DNA of 24,796 bases from a virus, in IMG/VR virus record IMGVR_UViG_3300037245_000145, positions 1 to 24,796 of that record. One strand, written 5' to 3'. The notes below the pieces were generated by a model. That model saw nothing but the letters and a program-made list of their open reading frames with translations, searched no databases and was not told the DNA's origin. The position numbers were made by a program, and so were the translations under genes. Of the stretch, positions 1 through 24,154 are shown piece by piece; position 1 is the first letter of the stretch, and every line of letters starts with the position of its first letter.

Positions 1-1257
1 GATGGTAGAGCCAATAAAGATTACAGGGTAACAGAAACAATGAGCAGGACACAGATGGATAAGGTTAGAGCAGCTTTTAATAGCAGCACGCCTTTATTCT
101 ATGTAGATGATCCACTTCAAGATGGATCAATGTTCACAACTGAAAATACTGGTATACCTGCTGTACAAGCAATAAGAGGTGATAGACCTATAGACATGCC
201 TAGGCAAGCAAACCGCATTTTAAAGAGTGAACTTAGAGAAGAAGCAGGGAAAGTTTATGATGCTTTAAGTTTAAATTTAAATGCAGCTCTAACAGACAGA
301 ATGGATGCAAGAACTAAATCAGCATCATTTGAGTCAATTAAATTTGGTATTGAAGGAGGCTATGCTGATGTAACAAACAATATTACATTTGAATATGGAT
401 TTAACCCGCTGTCTCCTAATAAAGAAGCATATAATGAAGTAAGAAACATGGCAATGCAATTGGGTGCATTAAAAAGATCAGGAACACCTTTTGGTATTGG
501 TATAGGAAATTTAAACAATGAAGATCAGTTAGTTCAACAAGATCCGTTAGCAGTAAAAGTTTATGAGCTCTTAATGAAGGATGTACAAACTTGGCTTGGT
601 AATCCTAAAAGATCCAACTCAGCTGCTATTGCTCCTATATTTGATCTTAACTACAAATCAGTTTATGACATTGCTTCTAAAGGAGATAAAACTCATGCTG
701 GTTTTGAAATAGATAACATATCTGAATGGTTAGCATCAAAGGTTAAAGGATCTACTGCTGATGTTAATAAACAATTTGGTGCATTAACTACAGATGATAT
801 TGCTAGATTAAAAGGTATTGGAGAAGATAATGAGGGTAGTGGTATATTTATAGTATTCCCACAGTCAGAAGATATTAATATTAAGGCTAGAAAGAATGAC
901 TATTATTCTTCAACTGAAATAGATATCCTTAGCGGTGATAATAGTAGTTATGCTGAATATACTGTTCCTAATGATAACGGTATTACACCAACAGCTACTT
1001 ATAGAGTTACTAAGAATGGAACTGGAAACTATGATTTGATAACAGAGATTAATACATATAATCCATATCCAAGTGATCCAGATCTTCAAGCTAATTGGAA
1101 AGAGTATACTACATCAACTAATACTCATAAAATGGATTTTTCTCAAGGCTTACAAGGAATTGATCAGCAAATAAATAAAGTTCAATTAACTCTAGAGGAA
1201 ATAAGAAGAAACAATCAAGCTCTTAGAAAAAAGGATGAGGCAATACAAGGTAAATAA
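1..1257 (+). CDS. Hypothetical phage protein upstream of the RNA polymerase gene, 5' end outside the window
   Basis: The reading frame is open from the first base of the window to the TAA at 1255-1257, so this is probably the C-terminal part (418 residues) of a longer protein. The first ATG is at 40, but nothing marks it as the true start: there is no Shine-Dalgarno sequence and the frame continues upstream without a stop. I do not recognise the family. The visible part is soluble and polar, with no membrane segment. Its last 40 residues (nt 1129-1254) are rich in Q, K, E and regularly spaced I/L and probably form a coiled coil. It lies 14 bp before the giant polymerase gene on the same strand, so co-transcription is likely. 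By position it may be a virion or injected cargo protein; that is inference only. Confidence 0.75.
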   Translation, partial: DGRANKDYRVTETMSRTQMDKVRAAFNSSTPLFYVDDPLQDGSMFTTENTGIPAVQAIRGDRPIDMPRQANRILKSELREEAGKVYDALSLNLNAALTDRMDARTKSASFESIKFGIEGGYADVTNNITFEYGFNPLSPNKEAYNEVRNMAMQLGALKRSGTPFGIGIGNLNNEDQLVQQDPLAVKVYELLMKDVQTWLGNPKRSNSAAIAPIFDLNYKSVYDIASKGDKTHAGFEIDNISEWLASKVKGSTADVNKQFGALTTDDIARLKGIGEDNEGSGIFIVFPQSEDINIKARKNDYYSSTEIDILSGDNSSYAEYTVPNDNGITPTATYRVTKNGTGNYDLITEINTYNPYPSDPDLQANWKEYTTSTNTHKMDFSQGLQGIDQQINKVQLTLEEIRRNNQALRKKDEAIQGK

Positions 1258-1271: not shown

Positions 1272-4200
1272 ATGGAAAACGAATCTAATAAGCCATTAGC
1301 GCAAGAGATTAAGAATCAAGAAAGACCTGCCCCAAGTATAATACCTGAAGGGCAGTTCCGCTTTGAGCCAATTGCAGAAATGTTTGACTCACCAGAGGAA
1401 AACTTTAATGACTATTTATTAAGTAGTGATTTAGCAGCTGATGATGTTTCAGGTGTAAATGAATATAAGGCTGATATAGATAAGTATGGTATAGGAGCTA
1501 TGGCTTCATTAGGTGTAGGTGTACCTAGTTTTGCATCAGATACATATAATCCAAGAGCACAAGATTTACCTCCTGAGAATAATTTTACTAAGATTCAAAA
1601 AGCATTAACATTAGAAAAGAAACCAATTTCAGAAACTAGAATGTCTCCTGTGTTTTCAGGAATGAGACAAGGTCAATTTGAAAGATATTATAACCATCCA
1701 GAATTTGATAAACTTGGTTTTACTCCATACTCTAATATGGAGAATTACTATAATGCAAATTCTACTATCTGGGATGACATGACTAGAATGAGAGGTCAAT
1801 GGATGTCTCTTGCTGGTACAGGATTAAATTCTGTATATGGTTCTTTGTTTAGTGGAGGAGATTATCTTGCTCCTGATTTTGAATCTGCAACTGAATTTGA
1901 AGATACAATGGGTATTGCATCATCATCAAGAGGTGGTGGTCTTGCTTTCTTTAATAACCTAGCAGCAAACTCAGCATATACATTTGGTATATTAAGTTCA
2001 ATAGCTATTGAAGAAGTTATTCTAGCTGCTGCCAGTGGTTTATCAGGAGGAGCTTTAGCTGCACCTGCAGCTGTAAAGACTGCTTCAAATGTTGGTAAAG
2101 CTGGGAAAGCTCTTTATAGTTTTACTAAGCTATTTGATAGAACAAGAAAGATACTACAAAAAGCAAAAGAACTTGAGACAGCAAGAGATTTTTATAATGC
2201 TGCCATTACAGGTGGAAAAATGACTCTTAATACATTAGGTAAAGGCTTTACACCAAATACTCTGAAGGCATTCCAAAATATGAAGACAGCACAAAATGCT
2301 GGACAAAACATGACCAACCTAGCTAAAATGGGTACTGGCTTTGGAGGTTTCTATAGAGATCTTAGAGCAGTAAACTTAGCAATGGCTGAGAGTAAGTTGG
2401 AGTCAGGAATGGCTTACAATAAAGTAATGAGACAAGGTCTTACAGATGCCAACAACTTTAGTGGTGGTCAAGGTATTACTGATGGAAGAGATGTATCTAA
2501 TGCAGCTAATCAAGCAGCATTTAAAACTATGTTGGGTAATGCCCCTCTTATATATGCAAGTAACTGGTTTGTTATTGGTAATGCAATGGGAGGTTTTCAA
2601 AGAGGAATACAAAGAACTATTGGATCTACATTTCAGAAAGGTATAAGCAAAAATATTGTTAATACTGCAGGTAAGAAAGTTATAAATGGTGCGGGTGAAG
2701 TAATTAAAAGTCCATTCAAATACATAGGTGGTGGATGGAAAAATACATGGGCAAAAGTTAAAGCAGGAGGCGTTAAAGGTATTGTTGGTTCTGGTGGTAT
2801 AGCTATGCTTGATTATTTTGCAGCTAATGTTGCAGAAGGTATACAAGAGATTGGTCAAGAAGCTATTTCAGCTGCAACTGTAGGGTACTATACAGAAATA
2901 TTAAATAATCCTGCTCAAGGGGGAGAAGCTCTTAAGAATCAAATGATACTATCAGCAATGGGTGATCAGTTTTCTGCACAAGGAGCTGGTACATTCTTAT
3001 CTGGTTTCTTAATGGGTGGTTTAGTAAGCGGTCCTCAAAAGTTATTCTTTCAAGGTGTTCCTTCTATATATAATTATGGTCTTCAACAAGCTGGAATTGG
3101 TTTAGCAAGTAAGTCTCAGAAAGAAGCATATGCTGAGTATAAAACTAACAGAGAGAACATGATTAATAAGGTTGTTGAATCTTATAATAAATCTTGGGAT
3201 TCTCAAGCAATAGATCCTTCAAGTCTATTTGATATAAATAGATTAAACTTTATGGTGCAGAAAGAAGCTGCTGAGAACATGAAGAGCGCTCTTGATATAT
3301 TTAATTTTGTTGACAATGCAGATAGATCTAAGTTCCAACAATATTATACCATGTTTGCTGGTAATGGTTCACAGTATTTTAAAGATCAACTTCAAGGATT
3401 TTTAGAACTAACAGATGAAGAACTAGCTCAAGCATTTCCTGGTGTATCTAATAAAGATAAAAAGGATGGTAAGTTAAGAGGACGTATTAATGATATGCTT
3501 GTTGGTATTGATAAGATGGAACAATCTTATAATGAAAATAAAGATAAGTTTAAGAACCCATATAATAAAAACAAGTTTAATCCAAAAACACAACAAAGAC
3601 AATATATAGCAGAGCTGCTTAATGAAGAAGCATATGAACATGTGCGTTATTTATATATGTTCACTAATGATGGATTTAATAGAGCTTTAGAAAGAGCAGA
3701 TAGTATTTATTCTAAGTTGCAGTCTGATCCTTTATTTGATAAGATGTCTGCAAATGATATTACAAACTTACTTGATGAAAAATCAATCCAGGTTGAAATA
3801 GATATGCTACAACTTGAGATCTTAGCCACAGGTGAAGATAAAACTCAGGGTATTGGAGAATCAAATAAAACCAAAAAAGAAAAAATAAAGAGATTAAAAG
3901 CTATTCAAAAAATTATTAATGATCCACAGAATAGATTTAAAAATGGAACCTTTAAAAGAAACAAACTTTTAAAAGGTAAGCTCAGAACTGAGTTTAGAAA
4001 TTATGTAAGATTTATGGCATCTGCTGCAGGGACATTTGCAGATGAATCTAAAATTGATGCAGCTCTTGAACAAATTGTAGACTATGGTGCACTAAAAGGA
4101 AGAGCACGAGTTTATGACAAAGCTATTCAGTTTATGCAAAATCCTGAAAAGTTTGCTGAGATTCAAGAAAGAGCTTATGAAGTAAATAAAGAAATCTACG

Positions 4201-7200
4201 GTCAGCGTGCTAAGATTACTGAAGCAATGATAAAACAATATGTAGATATTGTTGAGGCAAATGAATTAGTAGTTCAACTTGGTAAGATGGGTGTTTATGC
4301 AGCTACATCAGAAACACAAATGTTTTTACAAACTGGTAATGCCGCATTCTTACAAACATTTTATGATGATAATGGTAGAGTACAACCAGAAATGCATACA
4401 GTATTGTATGAACAAATTCAACAACGTATATCTATTTACAATCAAACAAGAGCAGAACAACTTAAAGAAGAGAATCCACAAACTCAAGAAGAAATAGACG
4501 TTGAACAAAGTGAAGAAGCAAGATCTGCAATAGATATTCTTTTAGAAAAAGCAGGTATAGATGTAAAGATTGATGTAAGTATTAATAGTCCTTTGTTGGT
4601 TAAGGTATTAAAAAGAAGTTATAATAAGTATAGAGCTCAACAAGCTAGATTAGGCTTACCTGTCTTAGATAGTACTGAATGGATAAGTACTGCAGAAGCT
4701 ATAAATATTAGAAACGTTGTTAATGCAGTCAAAAAAGTATGGGCATCAGGTGAACCTCAAGTTGGTGTAGAAGGAGTTTTAGAATACGTTAACCCATTAG
4801 AAACAGATGTAATAAAAAATGATACGGGATTTGAAGAGTTTCTACAAGACCCTGAAGTTTTAATTAACAACCCTGTTATAACATCAATACTAAATCAATC
4901 AGGTGTTGAAATGTCTGATATTGTTGAAAGTAAAGATGTTACTTTAGAAGAAGGGCAAGCGTTAGAAGATACACCTCAAAGAGTTTTCTATAAAGAAGGT
5001 GTTACTGCAGACATATATAAGATATCAGTAGTAGATAATCAAACAGGGGAGATTGTTGAAATGTATAAGCTGTTAGATAAAAAAGGTAATGAGTTACCTT
5101 CTGATGTTCTTGAATTTGTAGATAAGAATTTTAAGTCAGTTCAAGGTGTATTCTTGGCAGGGCAAGGTAAGACAGCTAAACAAGCATTAGATGCTTTGAA
5201 TACAAACCTTGTTGATTCTAATACTCCATTTAGTTTTGATGGTGTAGACAATTTAACATATGGTCAAGTTGTGTATAAAGACGGTGTAAAATACATTGTT
5301 GTTCAGGATCCACGTTTTTCTAAGAAATTTGGTGCAAACCAAAAACTTAAAATAATTAAAGAGTCTGATAATGTAGGTCCATTTTCAGACAGAAAGTTTT
5401 TATTTGTACCGCAAGGAGAGTTTAAAGGCAGGTTTACTTTAGAGGAAACTACATTTGAATTAATACCAGATTCGGTTACTAAAATTCAAATACAAGATCT
5501 TACTACTTTATATCCACATGTAAATTATACTGAGGGAAGTACGGAGTCTGATAACGTTAATGCAAAAGAAAGATATAATGCTATTCTTAGCATGTTAACA
5601 GCAGAAGAAATAGAAGGCTTACAATTAGTTGTTACTCTTGATTCACAAGGTGGAACTAATACTGGATCATATGCAGTTAAAAATAGAGCTGGAAAAGTAT
5701 ATAAAGAAGGCAACCCATTAATAGATAGATTACGTAGTAAATACATAGTTGGTATAAAGATAGCTTCTCCAGAATTAGCTGCATCAATTAATGAAAAACT
5801 AAAAGAGATGGGCATTGAACCATCTAATAGTCCAGAAGGTGTCTTTGCATATTTGAATAATGAATCTTTTTTAATTAGAGATCAACGTACAGGTAGCCCT
5901 ATAGATCCTAGATCTATGACTAAAGAACAAGCAAGTAATGTTATTCTTGCTCAGAAAAACTTAAATGCAGAACAAAAACAACAGGCACTTGAGCGTGTAC
6001 ATAATGCGTTTGCATTAAACGCACTTGTAGTTCAAACGTTTGACAATTTAAATATAGGTGAAGAGGTAACCTATATTATGGCAAATTCAAAAGATCTACC
6101 TTTTGGATTAAACTTAACTCCAGGAGGAGGGAGAGTTGCATATGCCAAATCTAGAGAAAGAGTTTATCCTTTACCTATGGATGCACTGCAATATAATACT
6201 GCAGATCAAGAGGGTAATTTATTTGTATTTGATTTAAAATATGATAAAGAAACAGGTAAAAGAAGTTATGACTTTACTACAAATTTAAAAGGTAAAGAAA
6301 GAGATGCTTTAGAAGATGCAATTGAAAAGCAATTAAAAAAACAAAAGCAATGGGATAATCTATTAGATGCCGGTATGGGAACAGATAGATATCTAGCTAT
6401 GGTTAGATTGCCTAATGGAACTTTTGCTAAAGTAAACTTAAAACCAGTAGAGTATAAACAAGAAGAATTAGAAGAATTATATGTAGATGTAGTTGAGGCA
6501 GCTAAAAGAATAGGTGCAATGACTAATGGTGAAAAGAGTATTGAAGAAGCTGTTAAATATAACAATGAACTATTAAGTAGATTATTTCTAAGTAGTTATT
6601 CAGGTAACTTAATAGAGCTAAATGTAGGGCCTGATGGGTCTATCTTTATTTCTTTAGACAATAAAAATTCTAAGACAAGTTTAAATGTAGGTTTTGATTT
6701 AGCTAAAATAAATTCTAAAGATAACGCCAAACAAGTAATTGAAGATTTAGTTGATGAATACAATAGCAATGAAGAAGTAGACGGATTAAATGCAAAACTT
6801 AAACCTAAAAACTTTAGAAAGTCTTTTGCTACAGGTGTATCACCTCAAGAAATATATGATAATAGTACAACAGAAGTATTACCAGAAGTAGTAGAAGGAC
6901 AAACTGTTGAAGTTTCTGCTGATTCTGATGCTATACAAATGTCACGTGATATAGCTTTTATTCCTAATACAGATAAAAGCAATGAGCTAGAAAGAGAATC
7001 TGCACTAGGTAGAGACAAACCTACAGCAGCAGAAGCAGAAGATTCTGTATCAGATATGGAAGAATCTGAGTTTGAAGAAATGATTGATGAGAATAATTTT
7101 GGAGATTATCAAAAAAATATTGATCATGTTGTAAATGCAATACTTAGAGGTATAGAGTTAAGCTCACGTGAAAAACAATTAATGAAGAATGATGTCTTCC

Positions 7201-10200
7201 GTCAGTCTGTTACTTTCCAGGTTACAGTACAAGGAGGTCCGGGTTCATTGGCTGTTGAGAAAAATGATAAAACAACAAAGCTTGATGCTATTAAAGCTGA
7301 GCTAGAGTCTCTTAGAGAAAAGTTGGAAGAAGGTTTGACAACTAAGAAGGCTAAAATAAAGGCTATTAAAAGTAGTAAGGAGTATCAAGATCTATTAGCT
7401 AAAAGAAAAAAGATGGAAAGGGGTGCTAATAAATTAGTACAGGCATCTTCTGAAACAGAACGCATTGATGACTATAATGAATTTATAGATTGGGCAAATG
7501 AGAATTTACCAGACACAATAACTATAGAAGATTTAGTAACTCTTGCAGATAATGGTATTTCAAAAGGATATGAAAGAGTTGGTTCTTTTGTTTTAAACTT
7601 AGATAGAATAGCAAATGGTGTTGATGTAAACGGTATTATATATACAAGTCCTTTAAGTCCTTATAAATACCATGAAGCTTTTCATAGTATCTTTAGAACT
7701 GTTCTTACTCAAGAGCAAATTAATAGATATAGAAGTATTGCTAAATCAGAAGTCAAAGCTAAGTATGGATCTAAATACAAAATAGAATTAGAAAGGTTTA
7801 GAAATTCTGCTCAGCAATATAAAGATATGTCTGAGATTGAATTAGAAAATGAATTTGCTGAAGAATATATGGCTGATGAGTTTGAAGCTTTTAAAAAGAA
7901 TCCAAGAAGCACTAAAACAAATACAGAAATAAAATCATTCTTTACTAAACTAATAGAATGGATCAAAGGAGTATTCTCTAAGTATTCATCTACAGAGTTG
8001 CTTACATTATATGAAAACATAGATGCTGGTAAATTTAAAAATGCATCCATACAGTCTAATGAATTTACAACTTTAGAAGACTCTTTGGGTGGATCAGTTA
8101 CTGTTGCTAATGCATTAGTTAGATATAGCACTGCATCTAAAGTTGTAGAGGAAGGAGAGCCTGCTGGTCAATTATATGTTGACTCAGATGTAATAGATCC
8201 ATTGATTAGATCTATGGCTGGTATGTTTATAAATAGAGTAAATGATCTTTCATTAACTAAAAAGTCATATAACCCTACTGAGGTTTATAATGATCTTGAA
8301 GTTGACTTTATGATAATGCTTGATCCAAATAGTGAAGCCAACAAAGGTTTTACAGGAGCTAAGAAAGGATATCTTGAACAACTGGATGATGCATTTACAA
8401 ACTACCCGGAAGATATCAAAAAAGAAGTTTTTAATTTGATTAATGTTATTTCTGATATGGATCAGGCTGATCAATTAAAAATAGAAAATGTTGAAGAAAC
8501 ATCAGGTATAAGAAGTACTAGTGATTTTAATAAAGATGCTGCTGAGATAGGTGGCTTTAATTCTTTATCATACAAAGTAAGATCATATATAGCAACCACA
8601 ACTATGGTTGGTGTTGACTTCTTTGGTAAGGAAGAGTTAACAGAAGGAGAGCCTTTGATTGTACCTGTTAAGTTTTTAGAGGCTTATACAGCATTACTCA
8701 AATCAGTTTCAAATGAAAGTAATCCTGCTGTAATGCTTAAGAGAATGTATTCATACTCTAGATTAAATCCACAAGGTAAAGCAGTAGTAGATAAACTATT
8801 TAATGACACAGGTATTACAATAGAAGGTCTAACATCTTCTGAACCATTCAAAGATGTTACTGATGGTTCTCTTTTAATTTCAATCCTAAAAGGATTTGAA
8901 AACTATAAGGTTGATTACTTATTTAATGAAAGAGATTCTAACGGTAACCTTTTAGTTTATACTGCATCAGAACGTGATGATATAAATGCTCAATTAGACG
9001 AATGGTCTCAAGCATATATAACAAAAAGAAAACTTGCTTTAGCAGATCCTAATAGAGTTAAATCTTTCTTAAGACTGACAAAGGATATGAAGGAAGTTAT
9101 GCAGTCATATCCAGAAGAAACAAGCGTGGTATATCAAATGTCCAGAGGGTTTTCTGAACGTATGTTTGATTTGATAGGTATTAGGTTAAGCCCTAACTAT
9201 ATTGCGTATAGTATTGCTTCAGCTAAAACAAATAAAGACTTAGAAAACAGTCCTGAGCTATTAGCATTAAAGGATGCATATAGTCAAGAGCCTATTACAA
9301 ATGAATTACTAGATCAATTATATGAAGGTCTAAGTAGAAATGGAGATATATTTTCTACTAAGGAAGGCGGTATGGCATCAAGGCTTACTAAATTAAGTCT
9401 TGCAAATGCTGTAATGGATGAAACAATTGGTTCATCTACATTTATAAACCCTAATGGTGATATAGTATATGCACATCAGCTACCAACGTTTCATTTAAAA
9501 ACAATGGCAGCTCTTAATAATCAAGCAAAGATTGATGAGTTACTTAACAACCCGTTCTTGTCAAATAACTATTTGCTCAATAGTGAAGCATTTTTAAATC
9601 TATCTAGAGAAAATAGATTAAAAGTAATTAGAGTTGCGGGTAGTAAACTTAAAGAACAAATAACAAATGCTGATAATGATCAAGTAAGTGAAGATTTATT
9701 AAATGAATCTATATCACAAAATAAAGCTACTCAAAGTTTTGGAGAGTTTACCCCACAGGAGTTTGCTATATCTCTTATAAACAACTACATGTCAAACTTT
9801 AACAGAAGAACTGGTAAAGTTGAAACAGTAGTTGGTAAAGACGGTCAAGAAATTGCAACGTCTCCAGTATTTTTAAGAGTAATGGAAGCTGCTAATACAG
9901 GAGACTTAGCATCTTTACCTATAATAAAAGCAGTTACTGATAAAAACGGTAACATTGTTCTTACAGAAGAAGCAATAGGTACATTTATAAATAGTATAGA
10001 AGCAGAGTTCAATAGAATTAGTGCAGAGCTATTAGCATTTGAAACTGAACCAGGTAACATTGAAGGTTTTAATAATGAGAAAAGTGATAGAGCAGATAAT
10101 GGTAGAGCATTTAAATTTACTAATAATGGTCTCTTACTTACTGAAGAAACTAAAAAAGAATTAATAAGAGTTGCTACAGAAAATGCTAAGCTAGGTAAAA

Positions 10201-13200
10201 CTATTTCTTTCAAAGAGGCTTTATCATCAGCAGTTGGAGTAACAAGTTCATCTATCAAAAATGAAGTTAATGCAAGTTTAGAAAATACTTTCTCAGATTT
10301 TATGGGTGTTCTCACATCTCTAAAAGTTACAGATAATTTATCTACACAAGTATTGAAAGGATTGAATATTGCTAATGGGGTTTCAAGAACCACAGTTGAT
10401 TTATCTATGCTGAAGTTAAATCTTACAACTGACAGCACTTATAATTTAAAACAAATATTCTTTAATAACTATATTAATGCAAAAGCATTAAATGATTTAC
10501 TACTAGGTGATCAAGCCATAACTCTAAAAAGTATGGTTGATAAAGTTAAAAGAGCTAAGTTGCAAAATGCTGCATACTATAGTGCTATGAGTCAGATTAC
10601 TGATCCAAGTAAAGGCATTACACATGCTAGTACTAATTTTGATTTATATCCTTTCCAGGATCCAACAGCTAAATCTGATTTTACTGGAAATGATATTGAT
10701 CTGGCTGATGCACAAGTTTACATTACTACAAAAGGTATACGTTATTCAACATTTGCATTTGGTAGATTAAGTCCAGCAATGGCAAGTATGTTAGATGATA
10801 TTGATATAGGTGCACCTATTAGTGCAGATAGAGCATGGGGATCACAAGAAAATTCTATTAATTTATCTAAACAACAAGATTTTATAAACTCTAAGAAGTT
10901 TGTATACATGGATGGTAAGACTGCATTAAAAATGTCAGTTACTGTTTTAACAAAAGAATATACATCTAAATATAATACAGACACCGGCATATGGGAAGCT
11001 AAGCCAAACATGCAACAGCTTCATTACTTGCGTGAGCAAATGGAAGCCAATGAAGAAGTTAATCAAAACTTTGCTATGGCAGCGCCTGTTTCAGCTATAA
11101 AGATGTTGAAGCAAGGGGTTAATTCACTTGTATCAGGGGAATTTGATACAACAGAAGACTTAGCTTCAATTAATTTAGATACTGCATACCTTGGTCTCCA
11201 GGTTATAAACCCTTCTAATAAAGTTATAGTAACTGATATGAATCAGATAAAGGAGCTTATAACTTCTGAACAAGATGATAGTACTCCAGTATCTATAGAA
11301 GGAAGCCCGGAACTAAACAACATAGGTAAGGTAAGAGAAGCATACAATGATGCAGTTAGTAATAGAGTAACTTTAAAATATAAAAATAAAAGAAACCTAG
11401 TATTTAGTTTTGATACAGCACTTGATGAGTTTGAACTATCAAAAGAAAAAGGTGCTATAACACCTAACCTTGCAGCATTTTTATTAGAAGCGCAAAAGGG
11501 CTTAATGTCAGCAGGAGCATCTTCAAACTTACTTGAGTTTTTTGCTGTTGAAGGTGGTGTTCAAAAGTATAATTTAAACAGCCCAATTACTGCTAAAAAG
11601 TTTGAACAGCTTTTCTTAACATACTTTAGTAAGGGTACATTAAAAGAAAAAGTACCGGGTACTTCAGTTGCATTGTTATCTTCATTTGGTCATAAGGTCT
11701 ACAGACGTGTATATGAAATGGAAAATGGTATGCCTAGTAGATCTGAAATTGTAAGAGAAAGTGCTTACAATGGAGAAAGCCTAGAAAATATAAATGATCT
11801 TGTTGATGGTAAACATGGTGGTGTTCTTGTTCTTGATGTTCTAAGAACAGGTGTTATGGAGTACAAAAACAATGATGTTGTAAATGGAGAGCCTACAGGT
11901 GTAAGATATAGCGAAACTATTATGCCTGCTATGGATAGAAATATAATGGAGTTAATTCAAGAAAATCCAGATGCTGCAATACCAGAAGTGATAGCTAAAA
12001 TGTTTGGTGTACGTATACCTACACAGGATAAACACTCTGCAGTAAACATAAGAATTGTTGATTTTATGCCTGTGTATTACGGTTCAACTGCAATATTTCC
12101 TAAAGAACTTGTAGAAATATCAGGAGCGGATTTTGATATTGATAAAGTATATGCGTTAGCAAAAGAATACTACTTAGATAGTAATAAAAACTTTAAGGCT
12201 TATGGTTCTGGCAACTCTTATTTTGAGTATGTAAAGTACATGAACTTAAAAGCATCTGAACCTAATAATATCTTTAGCACGGCATCTTCTTTATATAAGG
12301 ATGAAACACTTGCAATAAGAAGAGATAACGCACTAAGTGCTGCAGAACAGACTAGGGTTACTGATGATCAAGGTGTAAATAAAATTACAGAAGAGGCTCT
12401 TAGAGCAATGTTGATATTAGGCCTGCCTGTTACTAAAGCACAATTTAAATCATACTCTGAAAAACACGGGTCTCCAAATGAAGGAGTACTAAATAATGAT
12501 ATATTAGATTACAGATACACACTAGCAGGTAATACAGGTGTAACAGGTGAAACACTAAAAGCTATTGATCAAGACTCTGGCCAAGGTAAATCAGACTTAC
12601 CTATAGCCTATCAAGCAGCTGATTTAAAAATGCTAGAAGATTTATTTGATGAGCTTTCTGAAATTGAGGGTATAGAATTATTTGCAAGCAGAAAAGATTC
12701 TGATATTGATGTTGATACACTTCATGGAATGATAAAATCTTTTGAAGCAAATAAAGGTGCAGCTATTGGTGCAATTGTAAAACCTAACCTGGCTTTAAGT
12801 CTATTACGTGAGTATAAAATTAAACTAGATAGACCTATAAAATTTGATGGTAAAACATATAATGGCTTTACTAAAGACAAAATAAATGGTGAAAGAATAC
12901 AAGATATTATTTCTACTTTAGTTACAATGGAGACTGATAATGCTAAAGAGCGTTTGATAGCTAAATTTGGACTTAACATTCATGCCGTTGGTTTAGTTGG
13001 TAATATGGTTTCTTTGGGTATTCCATTGAGAACTTCAATCTTATTAGTAAACTCTGCTGAAATAAGAGACTTATATGATCAGGCTTTAAATAAGAGTGAT
13101 CAGTATGATGCAAGTTTAGATACGCTTTTATCAATGCGTATAAATGCAGTAGCATCATTAGCTGCTAAACAAAAAGAGAAGAGTGGTGGTAAACTTCCGT

Positions 13201-15533
13201 TTGTAAAATTATCAGATAAATTTTTAGAGTCAGCTGTAGATAGTACAGAAGACTTAACACCTAATGAAAGACTTCAAATATTATTTTTATTTGATAGACT
13301 TAATAGTGTTAAAAAGTTTACAAACAAGATAAACAAAGTTACAAGTCTTACACAGGGTCTTCCTAAGTCTATACCAGAGATGAAAGATTCTATTGAAGAT
13401 ATTCTTTCTTTATTTGATAAAGATGCTCCTATGGATATTAGACCAATCTATGGTAACAGCAGCAAAACTTGGCAGAGCACTTATTTAAAAATATTTGGTC
13501 AAATACATAATGATCTTTTACCTAACACTATTTTAACCATGAGTCAGGACTTTAATGATATATTAAATCCTACTTATAAGCAAATGAATACTGATGGAAG
13601 AGGGTTTGATAATGAAGCAAAAAATAAAATTGAGCAAGATTTATTATCTTATTTAACAATTAAGTCATATCAACATCTTCTTAATAATAGTTCTGGTAAT
13701 TCTTCTGTAGAGAATTCATTACTTTATCCTGGAGTTGTAGGCACAACAGATTTATCTTTAGTTAAAAGAATAGAAGACCTACGTGCAGACAGGGCTAAGA
13801 AAGGTGAGGAATATAATTACTTCCTTGACAGTTTTGTAGGTACACAATATGCCGGGACAGAAGGTAATAACTCAGGATTAAATTTAGTAAAAGCAGATAC
13901 TTGGAGAAGGCTTAATGCAGCAAACAAAATTGATCTTCAAACATCATTTGCAAAACTATATGGTTCTATTGAGACAAGAGAAATAGCTGAAGACATTCTG
14001 CATTACATGATGGTTAAAGATGGATTGCAACTTAAGTATGGAAGTCTTATGAGTGCAATGAGTCCTTTTATTATGGACAAGTATCTTAAAAATGTTGGTG
14101 CAGTAGAAAGTGCTCTTAAGGGTCAAGTAGAGTTTGAACAAGTTTTTGGTGTATCTAAACAAGATGTAATGAAAGAGTTTAAGTATGGATACTTACAATC
14201 TAATATTGTAGGACCATATCTTTTAACTTATGATGCTAGCAAACTTGTTGCTGGGGAAACATTTGATTTTATCAATAGACCTCACAAGATGGAAATTAGT
14301 TCAGAAGGTTTTGATCACGTAAATGCAAAAGAATTTATAAGAGTTAAAGTAGATAAAGGACGAGGAGAAGAGTATGTATTGCTCAGAGCACTTGCTAAAG
14401 AAGATTCTAATGAAAATATAACTGTATACTCTGAGGTTTCATCAATGGGTTCTAATCAGCAGTTTGGTGGTGGCTTTGTAGGTGGACCTAGACTTACATA
14501 TAATCAAGTAAGAAACGTAGGTAGAGGAACAACACAAAATAGTTTACCTCAAGATAGAGCTGCACAACCAACACAACAAACACAACAAACTAGTGATACA
14601 ATACAAGAACAACAAACTAATGAGGTTGAAGTTGTATCTAGATATACTAATGCTGATGTAGAAGCTAATCCAAATAAGATATATGTATTTGGAGATAATA
14701 CTCAAAGAAAAGGTACTGGAGGACAAGCACAAATTAGAAATAATGAAAATGCTTATGGTATTAGGACTAAATTAAAACCTTCTAATACTTCTGATTCTTT
14801 TATGACTGATGAAAGTCTAGAAAAAAACATGAGAGCTATTGACTATGATATTAACGCTATTCTAGAAGATGGTAGACCTTTAGTATTTCCTAAAGATGGA
14901 TTTGGTACAGGTCTAGCAAAACTTAAAGAAAAAGCTCCTCAAACTTATGCTTATTTAAAACAAAGGCTACAAGAAGAATTTAGTTTTAATAATGATACTG
15001 GAGTAGTTTCTAAACCAACACAACAAACTAGTGAGGTTGAGTATCCTGTTGACACCAACCCTGCAGCTATACAAGATGTAAATGAAGTATTAAATTCTGA
15101 ATCAGCAATAGTTAGTCAAACTACGGATTCTGTAACAGTTCAAGCTGATGTAGATGCGGCAGAAACAAACATATCTGACATGGCAAAAATAATGGCTGAG
15201 TTGTCTAAGAACTCAGATAGTCTTATATTTGATGAGACAGGAAATGCTATTATAGAAGATACGGATCAGAGCATTCCAGAAGCTACAGAAGTTGAACAAC
15301 AACAACAAGAGCAACTAGAAATGGATCTTTTTGCTTCAGAAGAAATTTCAGAAGCTTCAAGTCTATCAGAATGGTGGGATGCAAATGTTGAAGGTAATAG
15401 TGAAGCTTTGAAAAAGCTATCTGCAGAAAATATAAAAAGCCTTGATGATGCAATATCAACATACGGTGATTTATTTTCACAGACAAAAGAAGGAGAACAA
15501 GAAATAATTGAGAGACTTAAATGTCTTATATAA
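1272..15533 (+). CDS. Giant multidomain virion RNA polymerase (crAss-like, DFDID type) with zincin-like and FGDN/GTGGQA domains
   Basis: One uninterrupted 4753-residue protein. The polymerase assignment rests on SGADFDIDK: Asp3620, Asp3622 and Asp3624 match the metal-binding aspartates of the double-psi beta-barrel of beta'-type polymerases (NADFDGD in bacteria). KVPGTS (3460-3465) and RIPTQ (3581-3585) lie upstream, like the bacterial beta' order ending in RRPTLHR. SAIKMLK (Lys3277, Lys3280) may be the lysine site of the other barrel; this is weaker. Other regions: Ala/Gly-rich hydrophobic stretches at about 224-270 and 577-590; coiled coil at about 2004-2055; zincin-like HEAFH at 2134-2138 with EFAEEY at 2194-2199; FGDN/GTGGQA domain at about 4458-4570 between Gln/Thr-rich linkers. 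As I recall, the phi14:2 enzyme is about 2180 residues with the motif near 1361, so this protein has over 2000 extra N-terminal residues, probably a fusion. The ATG at 1272 follows an AT-rich leader without a Shine-Dalgarno sequence. Confidence 0.88.
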   Translation: MENESNKPLAQEIKNQERPAPSIIPEGQFRFEPIAEMFDSPEENFNDYLLSSDLAADDVSGVNEYKADIDKYGIGAMASLGVGVPSFASDTYNPRAQDLPPENNFTKIQKALTLEKKPISETRMSPVFSGMRQGQFERYYNHPEFDKLGFTPYSNMENYYNANSTIWDDMTRMRGQWMSLAGTGLNSVYGSLFSGGDYLAPDFESATEFEDTMGIASSSRGGGLAFFNNLAANSAYTFGILSSIAIEEVILAAASGLSGGALAAPAAVKTASNVGKAGKALYSFTKLFDRTRKILQKAKELETARDFYNAAITGGKMTLNTLGKGFTPNTLKAFQNMKTAQNAGQNMTNLAKMGTGFGGFYRDLRAVNLAMAESKLESGMAYNKVMRQGLTDANNFSGGQGITDGRDVSNAANQAAFKTMLGNAPLIYASNWFVIGNAMGGFQRGIQRTIGSTFQKGISKNIVNTAGKKVINGAGEVIKSPFKYIGGGWKNTWAKVKAGGVKGIVGSGGIAMLDYFAANVAEGIQEIGQEAISAATVGYYTEILNNPAQGGEALKNQMILSAMGDQFSAQGAGTFLSGFLMGGLVSGPQKLFFQGVPSIYNYGLQQAGIGLASKSQKEAYAEYKTNRENMINKVVESYNKSWDSQAIDPSSLFDINRLNFMVQKEAAENMKSALDIFNFVDNADRSKFQQYYTMFAGNGSQYFKDQLQGFLELTDEELAQAFPGVSNKDKKDGKLRGRINDMLVGIDKMEQSYNENKDKFKNPYNKNKFNPKTQQRQYIAELLNEEAYEHVRYLYMFTNDGFNRALERADSIYSKLQSDPLFDKMSANDITNLLDEKSIQVEIDMLQLEILATGEDKTQGIGESNKTKKEKIKRLKAIQKIINDPQNRFKNGTFKRNKLLKGKLRTEFRNYVRFMASAAGTFADESKIDAALEQIVDYGALKGRARVYDKAIQFMQNPEKFAEIQERAYEVNKEIYGQRAKITEAMIKQYVDIVEANELVVQLGKMGVYAATSETQMFLQTGNAAFLQTFYDDNGRVQPEMHTVLYEQIQQRISIYNQTRAEQLKEENPQTQEEIDVEQSEEARSAIDILLEKAGIDVKIDVSINSPLLVKVLKRSYNKYRAQQARLGLPVLDSTEWISTAEAINIRNVVNAVKKVWASGEPQVGVEGVLEYVNPLETDVIKNDTGFEEFLQDPEVLINNPVITSILNQSGVEMSDIVESKDVTLEEGQALEDTPQRVFYKEGVTADIYKISVVDNQTGEIVEMYKLLDKKGNELPSDVLEFVDKNFKSVQGVFLAGQGKTAKQALDALNTNLVDSNTPFSFDGVDNLTYGQVVYKDGVKYIVVQDPRFSKKFGANQKLKIIKESDNVGPFSDRKFLFVPQGEFKGRFTLEETTFELIPDSVTKIQIQDLTTLYPHVNYTEGSTESDNVNAKERYNAILSMLTAEEIEGLQLVVTLDSQGGTNTGSYAVKNRAGKVYKEGNPLIDRLRSKYIVGIKIASPELAASINEKLKEMGIEPSNSPEGVFAYLNNESFLIRDQRTGSPIDPRSMTKEQASNVILAQKNLNAEQKQQALERVHNAFALNALVVQTFDNLNIGEEVTYIMANSKDLPFGLNLTPGGGRVAYAKSRERVYPLPMDALQYNTADQEGNLFVFDLKYDKETGKRSYDFTTNLKGKERDALEDAIEKQLKKQKQWDNLLDAGMGTDRYLAMVRLPNGTFAKVNLKPVEYKQEELEELYVDVVEAAKRIGAMTNGEKSIEEAVKYNNELLSRLFLSSYSGNLIELNVGPDGSIFISLDNKNSKTSLNVGFDLAKINSKDNAKQVIEDLVDEYNSNEEVDGLNAKLKPKNFRKSFATGVSPQEIYDNSTTEVLPEVVEGQTVEVSADSDAIQMSRDIAFIPNTDKSNELERESALGRDKPTAAEAEDSVSDMEESEFEEMIDENNFGDYQKNIDHVVNAILRGIELSSREKQLMKNDVFRQSVTFQVTVQGGPGSLAVEKNDKTTKLDAIKAELESLREKLEEGLTTKKAKIKAIKSSKEYQDLLAKRKKMERGANKLVQASSETERIDDYNEFIDWANENLPDTITIEDLVTLADNGISKGYERVGSFVLNLDRIANGVDVNGIIYTSPLSPYKYHEAFHSIFRTVLTQEQINRYRSIAKSEVKAKYGSKYKIELERFRNSAQQYKDMSEIELENEFAEEYMADEFEAFKKNPRSTKTNTEIKSFFTKLIEWIKGVFSKYSSTELLTLYENIDAGKFKNASIQSNEFTTLEDSLGGSVTVANALVRYSTASKVVEEGEPAGQLYVDSDVIDPLIRSMAGMFINRVNDLSLTKKSYNPTEVYNDLEVDFMIMLDPNSEANKGFTGAKKGYLEQLDDAFTNYPEDIKKEVFNLINVISDMDQADQLKIENVEETSGIRSTSDFNKDAAEIGGFNSLSYKVRSYIATTTMVGVDFFGKEELTEGEPLIVPVKFLEAYTALLKSVSNESNPAVMLKRMYSYSRLNPQGKAVVDKLFNDTGITIEGLTSSEPFKDVTDGSLLISILKGFENYKVDYLFNERDSNGNLLVYTASERDDINAQLDEWSQAYITKRKLALADPNRVKSFLRLTKDMKEVMQSYPEETSVVYQMSRGFSERMFDLIGIRLSPNYIAYSIASAKTNKDLENSPELLALKDAYSQEPITNELLDQLYEGLSRNGDIFSTKEGGMASRLTKLSLANAVMDETIGSSTFINPNGDIVYAHQLPTFHLKTMAALNNQAKIDELLNNPFLSNNYLLNSEAFLNLSRENRLKVIRVAGSKLKEQITNADNDQVSEDLLNESISQNKATQSFGEFTPQEFAISLINNYMSNFNRRTGKVETVVGKDGQEIATSPVFLRVMEAANTGDLASLPIIKAVTDKNGNIVLTEEAIGTFINSIEAEFNRISAELLAFETEPGNIEGFNNEKSDRADNGRAFKFTNNGLLLTEETKKELIRVATENAKLGKTISFKEALSSAVGVTSSSIKNEVNASLENTFSDFMGVLTSLKVTDNLSTQVLKGLNIANGVSRTTVDLSMLKLNLTTDSTYNLKQIFFNNYINAKALNDLLLGDQAITLKSMVDKVKRAKLQNAAYYSAMSQITDPSKGITHASTNFDLYPFQDPTAKSDFTGNDIDLADAQVYITTKGIRYSTFAFGRLSPAMASMLDDIDIGAPISADRAWGSQENSINLSKQQDFINSKKFVYMDGKTALKMSVTVLTKEYTSKYNTDTGIWEAKPNMQQLHYLREQMEANEEVNQNFAMAAPVSAIKMLKQGVNSLVSGEFDTTEDLASINLDTAYLGLQVINPSNKVIVTDMNQIKELITSEQDDSTPVSIEGSPELNNIGKVREAYNDAVSNRVTLKYKNKRNLVFSFDTALDEFELSKEKGAITPNLAAFLLEAQKGLMSAGASSNLLEFFAVEGGVQKYNLNSPITAKKFEQLFLTYFSKGTLKEKVPGTSVALLSSFGHKVYRRVYEMENGMPSRSEIVRESAYNGESLENINDLVDGKHGGVLVLDVLRTGVMEYKNNDVVNGEPTGVRYSETIMPAMDRNIMELIQENPDAAIPEVIAKMFGVRIPTQDKHSAVNIRIVDFMPVYYGSTAIFPKELVEISGADFDIDKVYALAKEYYLDSNKNFKAYGSGNSYFEYVKYMNLKASEPNNIFSTASSLYKDETLAIRRDNALSAAEQTRVTDDQGVNKITEEALRAMLILGLPVTKAQFKSYSEKHGSPNEGVLNNDILDYRYTLAGNTGVTGETLKAIDQDSGQGKSDLPIAYQAADLKMLEDLFDELSEIEGIELFASRKDSDIDVDTLHGMIKSFEANKGAAIGAIVKPNLALSLLREYKIKLDRPIKFDGKTYNGFTKDKINGERIQDIISTLVTMETDNAKERLIAKFGLNIHAVGLVGNMVSLGIPLRTSILLVNSAEIRDLYDQALNKSDQYDASLDTLLSMRINAVASLAAKQKEKSGGKLPFVKLSDKFLESAVDSTEDLTPNERLQILFLFDRLNSVKKFTNKINKVTSLTQGLPKSIPEMKDSIEDILSLFDKDAPMDIRPIYGNSSKTWQSTYLKIFGQIHNDLLPNTILTMSQDFNDILNPTYKQMNTDGRGFDNEAKNKIEQDLLSYLTIKSYQHLLNNSSGNSSVENSLLYPGVVGTTDLSLVKRIEDLRADRAKKGEEYNYFLDSFVGTQYAGTEGNNSGLNLVKADTWRRLNAANKIDLQTSFAKLYGSIETREIAEDILHYMMVKDGLQLKYGSLMSAMSPFIMDKYLKNVGAVESALKGQVEFEQVFGVSKQDVMKEFKYGYLQSNIVGPYLLTYDASKLVAGETFDFINRPHKMEISSEGFDHVNAKEFIRVKVDKGRGEEYVLLRALAKEDSNENITVYSEVSSMGSNQQFGGGFVGGPRLTYNQVRNVGRGTTQNSLPQDRAAQPTQQTQQTSDTIQEQQTNEVEVVSRYTNADVEANPNKIYVFGDNTQRKGTGGQAQIRNNENAYGIRTKLKPSNTSDSFMTDESLEKNMRAIDYDINAILEDGRPLVFPKDGFGTGLAKLKEKAPQTYAYLKQRLQEEFSFNNDTGVVSKPTQQTSEVEYPVDTNPAAIQDVNEVLNSESAIVSQTTDSVTVQADVDAAETNISDMAKIMAELSKNSDSLIFDETGNAIIEDTDQSIPEATEVEQQQQEQLEMDLFASEEISEASSLSEWWDANVEGNSEALKKLSAENIKSLDDAISTYGDLFSQTKEGEQEIIERLKCLI
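7671..7685 (+). other. Zincin-like HEXXH motif in the giant polymerase protein
   Basis: Codons 2134-2138 read HEAFH, the zinc-binding and catalytic motif of zincin metalloproteases. About 60 residues downstream, EFAEEYMADEF (from residue 2194) offers an acidic third ligand, as in gluzincins. After it comes a basic amphipathic segment containing FFTKLIEWIK. Motif and spacing suggest an active peptidase, perhaps cutting the giant protein or other virion cargo. Activity and target are inference. Confidence 0.6.
12129..12143 (+). other. RNA polymerase catalytic motif DFDID
   Basis: Codons 3620-3624 encode DFDID inside SGADFDIDK. The three aspartates would hold the catalytic magnesium. The isoleucine in place of the glycine of bacterial DFDGD is typical of crAss-like phage polymerases and sets this apart from a host rpoC fragment. 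RIPTQ lies 39 residues before it (3581-3585), a spacing close to that between the PTLHR and DFDGD motifs in beta'. Confidence 0.88.
14611..14629 (+). repeat. Left copy of direct repeat flanking the FGDN/GTGGQA domain
   Basis: AACAAACTAATGAGGTTGA, matched with one mismatch (A/G) at 15022-15040. It sits in the Gln/Thr-rich linker before the domain. A second repeated string, ACACAACAAACTAGTGA, occurs at 14580-14596 and again at 15018-15034. Confidence 0.85.
14643..14981 (+). other. C-terminal FGDN/GTGGQA domain, distantly macro-domain-like
   Basis: Residues about 4458-4570 form a compact domain whose sequence style differs from the surrounding linkers. It begins YTNADVEANPNKIYVFGDN, continues with KGTGGQAQIRN and NAYGIRTK, and ends with FPKDGFGTG (4539-4547) and an amphipathic helix. 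The Gly-Asp-Asn and Gly-rich loops recall ADP-ribose-binding macro domains, and similar sequences occur in large phages, but I cannot confirm the fold. It is bounded by near-identical DNA repeats 411 bp apart, which suggests a movable module. Confidence 0.5.
15022..15040 (+). repeat. Right copy of direct repeat flanking the FGDN/GTGGQA domain
   Basis: AACAAACTAGTGAGGTTGA, 18 of 19 bases identical to 14611-14629 and exactly 411 bp (137 codons) downstream, so recombination between the copies would delete the domain in frame. It lies in the linker encoding PTQQTSEVEY, a shorter version of the linker on the left. Confidence 0.85.
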
Positions 15534-15548: not shown

Positions 15549-18500
15549 ATGGCTAAATGTTACAATAGAAATGATCCAGGATACCAAGCACTAAAAGATG
15601 AGTTTGGAACTAATATCAGAACATCTAAGATTATTAATGATTGGCAACGTGTCAATGGTTCTGACATGTTTCCTAGTGTTGTCCAAGCCCAAACAATGGT
15701 TAAGGATCAAAACATTGCATTTTCATTAAAGACTCAAGCTTTTGGTGAAAGTGTTCTTGACAATTTAAGAAGAGAAAGAATAGGTAAGAATTTTGCAGGT
15801 CAGTTTTTAATTAATAACTCTAATCCTAATACTCAATTATATGATGAAGCCTTTTTAGAAAGTAACCTAAAAAGATTTTACAGATACCTAGATATTAATA
15901 ATATACCAAGAGAATCATTTACGGTAACAAGAACTCCAAAGAGTTATAAGATTGAACCAAACAATGATATGTTTTCTGCCAGAGATATACTAGAAAAATC
16001 AAGATCATGGGATACCAATAGATCAAGGGCGGTTGTTATGCATCTTAAGAGGATGTTTCCACAGGTACAAGTAAAAATGGTATCTGTTGCACAAGCAAGA
16101 GTAATGTATGAGTCATTACCAAAAACTAAAACAAATAATGTTAAATTCAATGAAGTAAATTCTTTTTATATGGATGGTGTAGCCTATCTAATAAAAGGTA
16201 GAGTTACAGATGAAATAGCTATTGAAGAAATGTTGCATCCTTTTATAGATGCAATAAAGATGGAGAATGAAGAATTATTTAACTCACTTCTTGAGGAAGC
16301 AGTAAATAATTTTCCTGAACTATCACAACAAATTGAAGATGCTTACAATGCCAGTACAAGAAATTTCAGTGATACTGAAAGAGATCTTGAACTTGTAACG
16401 CAAGCATTATCAAGACACTTCAAAAAAGAATATGAGACAACACCAACAAAAGGATTTTTAGCAAAAGTTAAAGAAGTCCTTGAATGGTTTAAAGGTGTAA
16501 TTGAAAACCTTAATAAATATATTACAGGCAGAGAGCTTCCTGTATCTGCTATTAAACCAGGTACAAATCTGAGCGATATAGCCAAACTACTTAACACAGA
16601 AGGAATACAGTTTAAGTTAGAGAAAAGAGTAGATGGTAAATTGAGGTATGCTCTATCACCACAAAAAGAAATACAAATAAAAGATGCTTTAGAAAGGGCT
16701 AATGATACACAGAAGCCAATCATAATGCAATTATTTAATGTAGCACAGAGTGAAAATTCAGGCCTTGTTGATTCTCTGTCAGCATCAGTAAAAGATGCAG
16801 CAGCTGGAGATTCAATTGTAACGCTTAATAAAGAAGATCATACATACATAAACTCTAATGATGCTGATAAAGTATACACATCAGTAACTACAGCTATAAA
16901 AGGAAAGCTATCACCGGACAAACAGGTGGCTCATAAGATTAATTTAGATATTGGTAACGAAGTAGATACATTACTAGACGGTGTTATTGCTAATCTTTCT
17001 TTTGAAGATGCATATGCTGCGTTAGAAACAAACATCATATCTAAAGATAAGGCTAAGGAAACTTTTGATACCCTTGGTAGTATTATGGATAGTTTAAAAA
17101 TGAAAGGTGCTATTGTATTATCTCAAGTTGTTTTATTTGATGAAGCATCTAAAATGGCTGGTACTGCAGATGTATTTATTATAGATCAAAATGGTAAGGT
17201 AAATATCATGGATCTAAAAACTACAAAAAATGAACTAAGTAAAACAGTTCCTCTTAATGATAAAAAGGGAAAGCGTGTAGGAAATCAGTACAAGGAAAGA
17301 TTTTATACTTTAGAGAATGACTCTTTTCTAAGGCAGCAAGGTTTAGCAACTCAATTATCAACAGAGCAGCAACACAATCTACAAGTAAATGTATATAGAA
17401 GAATGGCTGAGAATATGGGATATGAAGTATCCTATGATGAATGGGCTACATCTACAATACATTTTAAGGTTGGGATAGAAGGTACTGGTTCTGATCAAGT
17501 ATTTGATGGTTCAGTAGATTTTGATAGATGGGTTCCTCATCCTATAAGCCAAAACTTAAATTTAGTAAATGCACTTGTCCCACAAGCAATAAGCTCTTAC
17601 CAAAAAAGTAAAATAGAACAAGAGCAAGAAGGCTCATATAATAAAACATGGAATGGTAAGGATCAGAATGATGAGACAACTGAAGAAGATAAAAAAGCAG
17701 CAGAAAACTATGATGAATACAATGCTGCAGCTGGCTTATTAGATACATATCAAAAAGCACTAATTGAAAAAAGAGATATGATTCCTTTGTTGACTTCTAA
17801 TATATATATGGAATCAACAAAAGAAAATGAGATTGATCAAATATCCAAGACAATAGCATACATAAATTTAGCTATGGCGGGTAATGTTAAAGGTCAATCA
17901 AAGGCATTGTCTGAGGTATTACAAGATGCATTATCACAAATAAAAGAGTTCAGGGCTTATGTTGAGAATCCAAAAAATGTAAACAAGCCAGAGTATGTTT
18001 CTTATGTTTTAAATTTTGATAAGTATATGAAAACGTTTGAAGGGCTTTTTATACTTAAAGATTTAAAAGGGCTAAATAGGACTCAAAATAATTTAATACT
18101 CTCATTACAAACACAACTTAATTTACTTAGTGGTGCTGGAACTGATACAGGAGGAATAGTAGGTACTGCACTGAAAGACTATGTAAAAGAAATGGTTAGG
18201 TTAAAATCAAACAATGATTATGGTGGTAAAGATAGTTTGTTTACTGAGAAAGACTTAGAGCTTTTATTGGAAAAAGTTCCAGATATAAGTGACACTGAAT
18301 ACGGAACGAAGGATCTGGCAACATCTCCGGATGTTTTGTTAGCTACAATGGATAAGATAAGAAAAGCTCAGAACCAAAAGCTATTAGATCTAGTTGCTCA
18401 AAGAGAATCAATGATTAGAGCTGCAGGTCAAAAGCTTGTAAAATTATCTCCAGAGTTAAAACTTGATGAGCTTTATAAGTTTATGCTAGAGTATGATTCT

Positions 18501-21416: not shown

Positions 21417-21791
21417 ATGAAAAGATTATTATTATTATTAATGTTAGGAATGGTTTCATCTTGTGGAACATATAATATATCCACAACCTATAAAATTAAA
21501 AGTATTTTAACTATAACAGAAAAAGGAGATACTCTTGCTGTTCCTGTTAGAGACTTTAAATTTAGAATATTGCGTCAAGATGATCCTTTTAGATATCAGT
21601 ATAGACAAGAATGGCAATATAGAAATTGGAGTAGATATTATATTCCAAACATTAATGTGAGAAATACATACAGTCCACCTGTAATGCACACGAGACCGGT
21701 AACAATACCAATAATTAAACCAGTAAAGCCAATAAAAGTTGTTGCACCGATAAGAGTACAAAAGAAAATTAAATTTAACAATGACAACTAA
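21417..21791 (+). CDS. Proline-rich lipoprotein, candidate outer-membrane spanin or other lysis accessory
   Basis: A 124-residue protein starting MKRLLLLLML, with a lipobox VSSC (Cys16) that predicts signal peptidase II cleavage and lipid attachment. The mature part is basic and Tyr/Arg-rich in the middle. Its last third is rich in proline and lysine, with repeated K-P-V/I steps such as IIKPVKPIKV. Its stop codon overlaps the start of the downstream holin-like gene by 11 bp, so the two are translationally linked. A short proline-rich lipoprotein beside a holin resembles Rz1-type outer-membrane spanins, but no inner-membrane spanin partner or endolysin is visible nearby. The lipoprotein call is good; the spanin role is a suggestion from context. 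Confidence 0.72.
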   Translation: MKRLLLLLMLGMVSSCGTYNISTTYKIKSILTITEKGDTLAVPVRDFKFRILRQDDPFRYQYRQEWQYRNWSRYYIPNINVRNTYSPPVMHTRPVTIPIIKPVKPIKVVAPIRVQKKIKFNNDN

Positions 21792-24144: not shown

Positions 24145-24154
24145 TATGTAATTA

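Follow-up and report, generated by a model that had tools for sequence, protein, structure and literature searches.

A giant zincin-polymerase chain and paired terminal cysteines at the gene breaks of a crassvirus virion transcription block

Introduction

A background question in phage biology is how megadalton amounts of protein are passed through a narrow tail and in the right order. Crassviruses include very abundant phages of the human gut, and giant RNA polymerases (RNAPs) and multidomain transcription proteins are known from this group (PMC7886860, PMC10136315), with RNAPs of up to ~6000 aa already noted (PMC10136315). The cargo detected in crAss001 virions includes three RNAP-associated proteins, and the ejection of crassvirus cargo has been modelled as extrusion with partial unfolding (PMC10172136).

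Here, an IMG/VR virus record (IMGVR_UViG_3300037245_000145) of 24,796 bases was analysed in its full length, and this whole stretch is called the window. Its main feature is an open reading frame (ORF) of 4753 codons, initially annotated as a virion RNAP embedded in a polyprotein-like chain for which two fates were suggested: (i) cleavage during assembly or entry; or (ii) passage into the cell as one string of domains. The question raised by this locus is whether such cargo travels as one thread or as many pieces.

Sequence sets and scoring

The cysteine counts started from 234 RNAP ORFs, the diverse relatives among them being the product of two further scans. Ten ORFs were dropped (no motif or a short core) and the other 224 were collapsed at 90% core identity to 131. 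From these, three broken or truncated frames (L076, L087, L180) and one likely chimera (L077) were removed, leaving 127 chains, whose N end could be scored in 85 cases and whose C end in 122. An N-side break was called where the DxDxD motif was preceded by fewer than 2600 residues, and a C-side break where it was followed by fewer than 1500. N-terminal cysteines were counted relative to any Met among the first 60 codons, and C-terminal cysteines within the last 15 residues.

A giant chain with a predicted crAss-like virion RNA polymerase

The giant ORF (1272..15533; features lie on the plus strand unless otherwise stated) is uninterrupted and comprises, from its N-terminus onwards: (i) an N-terminal cargo part; (ii) a zincin-like domain; (iii) the body of a crass virion RNAP; (iv) a passenger slot; and (v) a Cys-bearing tail. 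It is preceded by a partial ORF (1..1257) with 418 aa within the window and no Cys, and a second giant ORF, of 1927 codons, begins 15 bases past its stop. Sequencing errors that hide stop codons between separate genes had been named as a possible undoing of the single chain. A complete giant ORF of 4590-4798 aa is found in 21 of the 25 viral loci of the first scan (the remaining four are truncated), and the 12 relatives of full length that were aligned to the window chain share 56-99% identity with it. Hidden stops or frameshifts are, in consequence, excluded, and the 4753 codons stand as one long chain.

The DFDID catalytic aspartate motif lies at residues 3620-3624 (12129..12143), as first annotated, and the figures given at that time for phage phi14:2 (DFDID at 1361 of 2180) proved correct. 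A phmmer search of the whole chain against PDB sequences gave no matches, so that the identity of the polymerase had to come from profiles and structure. Megablast of positions 1272-13000 against phages found no match, and PHROGs and Pfam searches of the giant chain returned solely the DUF7831 module (see below) above threshold. By tblastn, residues 3001-4753 matched crassvirus RNAPs via residues ~3399-3678, including cr11_1 (8e-13) and p-crAssphage gp44, annotated as 'putative RNAP catalytic subunit' (3e-11). By pairwise profile alignment, phi14:2 gp077 (2180 aa) aligns to window residues 3570-3947 (E 7e-7), and a second, collinear stretch of the same protein aligns to residues 2892-3185 (E 5e-4).

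Two AlphaFold models were obtained, for residues 2085-3284 (pLDDT 76.5) and 3554-4753 (pLDDT 72.6). For each of them, the phi14:2 RNAP 6VR4 is the sole PDB match with E<=1e-3 (Foldseek, 1e-19 and 5e-13, respectively). In VIA, the first model gave a Z of 19.3 over 825 residues, with window residues 2294-3284 placed on 6VR4 91-1072, and the second a Z of 18.4 over 662 residues, with window residues 3554-4412 placed on 6VR4 1291-2112. Since the window maps onto 6VR4 from residue 2294 onward, the polymerase starts just behind the zincin. On these models, residues ~2290-4412 (8139..14507) are predicted to have the fold of a crAss-like virion RNAP of the phi14:2 type (gp66 in PDB 6VR4; gp077 in KC821624), with which the window shares the fold of both modelled parts and the DFDID motif. 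The structural mismatch that might have spoken against a virion RNAP did not occur, and this part of the initial annotation is borne out. In an alignment (A5) of the window and 44 of the 46 listed relatives (45 rows; L134, which has no C-terminal Cys, and L110 were left out), nine columns are invariant: R, P, D, F, D, D, D and K, together with the C-terminal Cys. The D, F, D and D of DFDID are invariant in these 45 rows.

The portal and TerL of crAss001 were each matched in the records of 6 of 7 relatives, the window itself being a fragment without these genes, and by these two genes the relatives of the window fall within Crassvirales. The crAss001 gp32 major capsid protein, used as a single-sequence query, matched 0 of the 7 records in a set that held no positive control.

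The zincin-bearing half and the three-member block

An HEXXH zincin motif had been noticed in the extra N-terminal part of the chain, and it is present as HEAFH at residue 2134 (7671-7685), within a zincin-like domain (residues 2080-2258; 7509..8045) recognised by pairwise hhalign and conserved motifs. Both tblastn (6e-3) and pairwise hhalign (3e-7) align residues 2133-2258 with the zincin region at the C-terminus of crAss001 gp47. Furthermore, HEAFH and a downstream EEY are invariant across the 39 rows of a second alignment (A6: the window and 38 of 40 listed relatives; L102 and L058 left out), and by analogy we take the downstream Glu of EEY to be the third zincin ligand. No zincin appeared among the structure matches of the model that began at residue 2085, inside the domain, and whose first 45 residues had a pLDDT <50. 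The ~2080 residues before the zincin (1272..7508) gave no convincing sequence match by tblastn or pairwise profile alignment; by position, they are the counterpart of the regions upstream of the zincin in crAss001 gp47 and p-crAssphage gp45. Hydrophobic Ala/Gly-rich stretches had been described in this part; just one stretch, of 19 residues (239-257), exceeds a transmembrane-like hydropathy cut.

The zincin protein is separate from the RNAP in crAss001 and p-crAssphage, and fused to it in the window and many relatives. In p-crAssphage, gp45, annotated as 'RNAP associated protein fused to zincin protease', directly precedes the RNAP gene; in phi14:2, gp078 precedes gp077 and has no HEXXH. A zincin HMM match is carried by 120 of the 147 RNAP-bearing ORFs of a wider locus set in which several contigs were fetched repeatedly and whose scans favour close relatives. 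An annotated gut record, cr10_1 (Suoliviridae), has HEXXH and DFDID within one protein (gp32, 4460 aa). By these comparisons, the extra N-terminus corresponds to the virion protein that bears the zincin in crassviruses (crAss001 gp47), joined in frame to the RNAP, with the fusion point somewhere around residues 2255-2290. Of the earlier proposal of a polymerase fused to a possible protease, the fusion is retained, while the partner turns out to be an already known crassvirus protein. The zincin-RNAP fusion alone is a further case of the known giant multidomain crass RNAPs. As for its function, the zincin may act on the envelope or on the cargo.

The third protein (15549..21332; 1927 aa) is a relative of crAss001 gp49 ('putative RNA-polymerase subunit'): its tblastn matches are crassvirus 'RNA-polymerase subunit' proteins (best 9e-23; crAss001 gp49 5e-20) and are confined to residues ~1308-1902. 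Judged by homology, the window is the usual three-member block with its first two members fused. The same set of a zincin protein, a catalytic RNAP and a third RNAP-associated protein is found in crAss001 (gp47-gp50-gp49) and p-crAssphage (gp45-gp44), which also share the terminal-Cys rule described below. In crAss001, unlike the window, all three genes are separate and gp47 lies on the other strand, whereas in p-crAssphage the RNAP is fused to the third protein instead of the zincin protein. The phi14:2 RNAP likewise has a giant virion protein on either side and is itself annotated as structural by mass spectrometry, but there the three genes are separate, with Cys at all four abutting ends; the window fuses the first two and keeps the Cys at the second joint. 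Outside crassviruses, the P23-45 virion RNAP (5002 aa) also combines a two-barrel RNAP and a giant virion protein in one chain, although in this case the polymerase is N-terminal on the tail tape measure protein (PMC10770324).

Terminal cysteines in the window and in named phages

The 4753-aa chain has one Cys, at residue 4751 (15522..15524, the sole cysteine codon of the ORF), which is invariant in the 45 rows of A5 (L134 left out). It lies in a C-terminal helical tail (residues 4696-4753; 15357..15530) which ends in ..IERLKCLI and whose last 60 residues were modelled by AlphaFold with a pLDDT of 65-86. The next protein has its only Cys at residue 4 (MAKCYN; 15558..15560). What is new in this locus is this pairing of cysteines at the gene breaks of the block, with Cys4751 facing Cys4. 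In the literature consulted on crass-like phages or virion RNAPs together with cysteine or disulfide, no report of these terminal cysteines was found; the Crassvirales review mentions neither cysteine nor disulfide, and the one 'cysteine' in PMC8042965 names a component of the medium.

In phi14:2, the only Cys of gp078 is its final residue; gp077 has two, at residues 3 and 2179 of 2180; and gp076 has one, at residue 3. In crAss001, gp47 has a single Cys at 2339 of 2341, gp50 has three (at 5, at 2404 of 2412 and in the interior), and gp49 has a single Cys at 5. In both phages, if the string runs from the first protein through the RNAP to the third protein, the facing ends carry cysteines and the two outer ends do not. 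The first joint of p-crAssphage is paired (gp45 ..SCM, gp44 MSC), and the C-terminus of its fused RNAP-third protein is free of Cys; the window lacks the pair at its fused first joint and has it at the second. The cr10_1 protein resembles the window chain in having a Cys 10 residues from its end and no N-terminal Cys, and differs from it by six additional interior Cys. Interior cysteines also occur in other gut phages (8 Cys in all in p-crAssphage gp44, 6 in cr11_1 gp66).

The annotated starts in DAC15, cr127_1, cr128_1, cr116_1, cr118_1, cr10_1 and Lbo-JY46 agree with the rule as far as the records were fetched (the next gene of cr10_1 lies outside the fetched stretch, and coverage of the first protein of cr118_1 is limited to its end). 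The RNAP of cr116_1 is split in two genes, the first ending in Cys and the second starting without it, a pattern as expected of an intron. In crAss001, DAC15, cr128_1 and cr116_1, the upstream partner gene is on the opposite strand and the rule still holds, which identifies it as a protein-level feature. Among other virion proteins, taken as a control, terminal Cys are found in 0/16 (N) and 1/16 (C) for phi14:2, and in 0/11 and 0/11 for crAss001.

A terminal-Cys pair between giant proteins was also observed in the Leptolyngbya phage Lbo-JY46 (L247, 3423-16329), a cyanophage not placed in Crassvirales, with one Cys at residue 1552 of 1552 and then one at residue 4 of 2748. As a separate observation, the starts of the third proteins share a recurrent M(A/S)xCxN(K/R)N, and a motif around CPN is common to starts of third proteins and of some RNAP ORFs (L190, L211, L236), at different break points, as if it were a portable docking tag.

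Cysteines at the gene breaks across relatives

Across the 127 chains, an N-terminal Cys is present in all 54 RNAP ORFs with a break at their start versus 2 of the 31 without one, and a C-terminal Cys in 85 of the 87 with a break at their end versus 1 of 35 without one. The partners follow the same rule, with a C-terminal Cys in 40/40 upstream and an N-terminal Cys in 83/84 downstream proteins. The outer ends do not: the third protein has a Cys at its joint (N-terminal) end in 79/79 cases versus 1/76 at its outer C-terminus, and the upstream protein at its joint (C-terminal) end in 38/38 versus 0/8 at its outer N-terminus. Background ORFs from the same loci, under the same lenient rule, have a terminal Cys in 19/101 (N) and 22/101 (C) cases. 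With stricter first-Met scoring, applied to an earlier set of 106 chains that included the four chains later removed, the figures for an N-terminal Cys were 38/45 at breaks and 1/25 without a break. Break points vary, with upstream pieces of 632-2072 aa.

The six chains fused at both junctions (3998-5646 aa), two of which are truncated by the edge of the locus, contain no Cys. Window-type chains, in which the zincin side is long and the third protein separate, have exactly one Cys in 44 of 55 cases, and 49 of the 59 chains with a motif position >=2600 have no interior Cys. Some chains from unspecified habitats carry up to 41 Cys.

Apparent exceptions were checked by hand. Two of them are real breaks with Cys on both sides (in L226, the upstream ORF ends in ..SCGF; in L143, the downstream ORF starts with MAANC), and a third (L192), compared with L196, carries a segment inserted in frame and is not a fusion. 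The exceptions that remain are L212 and L134: each ends at a break, yet its last 15 residues contain no Cys. The single outer-end exception, L146, has a split third protein whose later ORF starts with MSC. Extra splits in L132 and L146 have Cys on both sides; in L132, the added link is 390 aa long, with a Cys close to either end, and the piece after it carries its Cys at a GTG start. In L134, a 162-aa ORF between the RNAP and third genes (16135-16620) was observed to have a Cys at residue 3 (MSC) and another near its end; it adjoins an apparently inserted 615-aa ORF.

On a quick tree of RNAP cores, break states change at least 9 times on the N side and at least 7 times on the C side. Independent contrasts drawn from this tree go in the predicted direction but are too few for significance: on the N side, 5 agree and none disagrees, with 2 ties (p 0.06), and on the C side, about 3.5 agree and none disagrees, with 0.5 tied (p 0.125). 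A count of cysteines in internal-junction intervals gave 18/35 C-side-fused chains and, by the definition used in that count, 6/71 N-side-fused chains; it was set aside as too noisy in Cys-rich chains, and the test of ends was used instead. The RNAP-to-third junction in all-fused chains was not placed by an N-terminal HMM of the third protein. The counts of ends show that cysteines mark the gene breaks of the block, nearly always on both abutting ends.

A proposed thread of transcription cargo

From the cysteine rule we infer that the zincin protein, the RNAP and the third protein probably form one cargo string, whose members are joined either by gene fusion or by a disulfide between terminal cysteines, and which is ejected as one thread and freed by reduction. 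The virion would contain this string and eject it together with the DNA. Each abutting Cys pair would form an intermolecular disulfide once the virion meets oxidising conditions, so that the pieces would exit the capsid in sequence on a single thread; the reducing host cytoplasm would then open the joints and free the polymerase. A gene fusion would substitute a peptide bond for a disulfide joint; in the window phage, one joint would be the fusion and the other the Cys4751-Cys4 pair. Since the abutting ends carry a Cys each and the outer ends do not, threading as one string of domains is the favoured one of the two fates first suggested for the chain. Inter-subunit disulfides have been resolved in tail and portal-vertex proteins of crAss001 virions (PMC10172136). 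In vitro activity has been described for a phi14:2 virion RNAP (PMC10136315), and catalysis therefore does not require the joint.

N4-type virion RNAPs have a T7-like polymerase fold. In common with the crass chains, they are giant ejected polymerases that avoid Cys, and in N4-like phages this absence has been explained by passage through tail and periplasm (PMC3715699, PMC3915230). They differ from the window in being a single chain without any Cys, as are the all-fused crass chains. If the proposed thread is right, (i) the known avoidance of Cys in giant virion polymerases would be extended; (ii) redox release would join the ways in which phages time entry; and (iii) annotators would gain a rule for spotting broken or fused block members. 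Such a joint is recognisable from sequence, which makes the choice between one thread and many pieces directly testable in cultured phi14:2 and crAss001.

The wider generalisation is given only a slight edge over its denial: crassvirus transcription cargo would be a single thread whose links are either peptide bonds or redox-sensitive head-to-tail disulfides that form outside the cell and open in the host cytoplasm, fusion and disulfide would be evolutionarily interchangeable, and the C-terminal slot would carry exchangeable passengers.

Sequence does not separate a disulfide from another use of paired thiols, and the named gut phages keep their terminal Cys although their hosts are anaerobes. 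It is conceivable, if unlikely, that the cysteines pair the ends by sharing a metal ion or as part of a docking motif that uses thiols otherwise. Besides the anaerobic hosts of gut crassviruses, this would fit the N-terminal tag, which exceeds a lone Cys (M(A/S)xCxN(K/R)N, CPN), and the position of the C-terminal Cys of the window within a predicted helix, which together with the tag suggests a specific dock. Nevertheless, two thiols alone are a poor metal site, the scarcity of interior Cys (none in 49 of 59 chains) fits avoidance of disulfide scrambling, and disulfides do occur in crassvirus virions. We regard as decidedly unlikely that each protein dimerises via its own terminal Cys or bonds some other virion protein; nothing in the sequence fixes the partner, but the cysteines are on abutting ends and hardly ever on outer ones (1/76, 0/8), and the partners nearly always bear a Cys too (40/40, 83/84).

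Still less is to be expected of the polyprotein first suggested for this chain, in which the zincin would cut at or near residue ~2250 and free the polymerase. A zincin-like domain with a conserved HEAFH does lie directly before the polymerase start, and the separate genes of other crassviruses indicate that the halves can work apart; however, the zincin also occurs in proteins unfused to a polymerase (crAss001 gp47), so it need not cut the chain, and cleavage during assembly or entry is unsupported. Finally, many block genes abut or overlap, but the idea that terminal Cys are a by-product of some nucleotide-level or translational constraint at gene junctions is barely credible, being largely excluded by the opposite-strand upstream partners (crAss001, DAC15, cr128_1, cr116_1) and at odds with the other tightly packed virion genes of phi14:2, which do not have the pattern.

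A passenger slot near the C-terminus

Relatives of the window differ in the stretch that separates the RNAP body from the C-terminal tail, where they hold unrelated inserts or none. In the window, this slot (14580..15020) holds DUF7831 (PF25176) at residues 4455-4564 (14634-14963; Pfam E 2e-34, 118 bits versus a cut-off of 27), and the separate Gly-rich domain of the initial annotation is, at least in part, this variable module. Two copies of a 17-bp direct repeat, read by eye, flank the passenger (14580..14596 and 15018..15034).

Two relatives (L009, L011) have no insert in the slot and are otherwise ~99% identical to the window; another (L007) has a longer, weakly DUF7831-like insert (Pfam 7e-4, below cut-off); and L012 and L018 have other inserts. 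Two chains that are otherwise 37-46% identical (L108, L112) share one slot module of ~130 aa, for which Pfam gave no match, and L115 is without it though 94.7% identical to L112 over residues 1-4438. The slot looks like a site for the exchange of putative cargo that would ride into the cell with the polymerase. A scan for DUF7831, which by design finds close copies, gave 12 loci; in 11 of them the carrier ORF also has an RNAP HMM match, and the twelfth (L142) is cut off.

Variants of a linker, PTQQTSEVE, recur beside unrelated slot modules. A NADAR-like identity of the L108/L112 passenger, suggested by eye, is not claimed, as Pfam gave it no support. The occurrence of DUF7831 upstream of a window-clade polymerase in L077/L140 was likewise set aside, since the contig is possibly chimeric via the shared module (cf. 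L141). Beyond the block, the window has a holin-like gene (21781-22194) and, on the minus strand, genes for the large (541 aa) and small subunits of ribonucleotide reductase (22368-24796).
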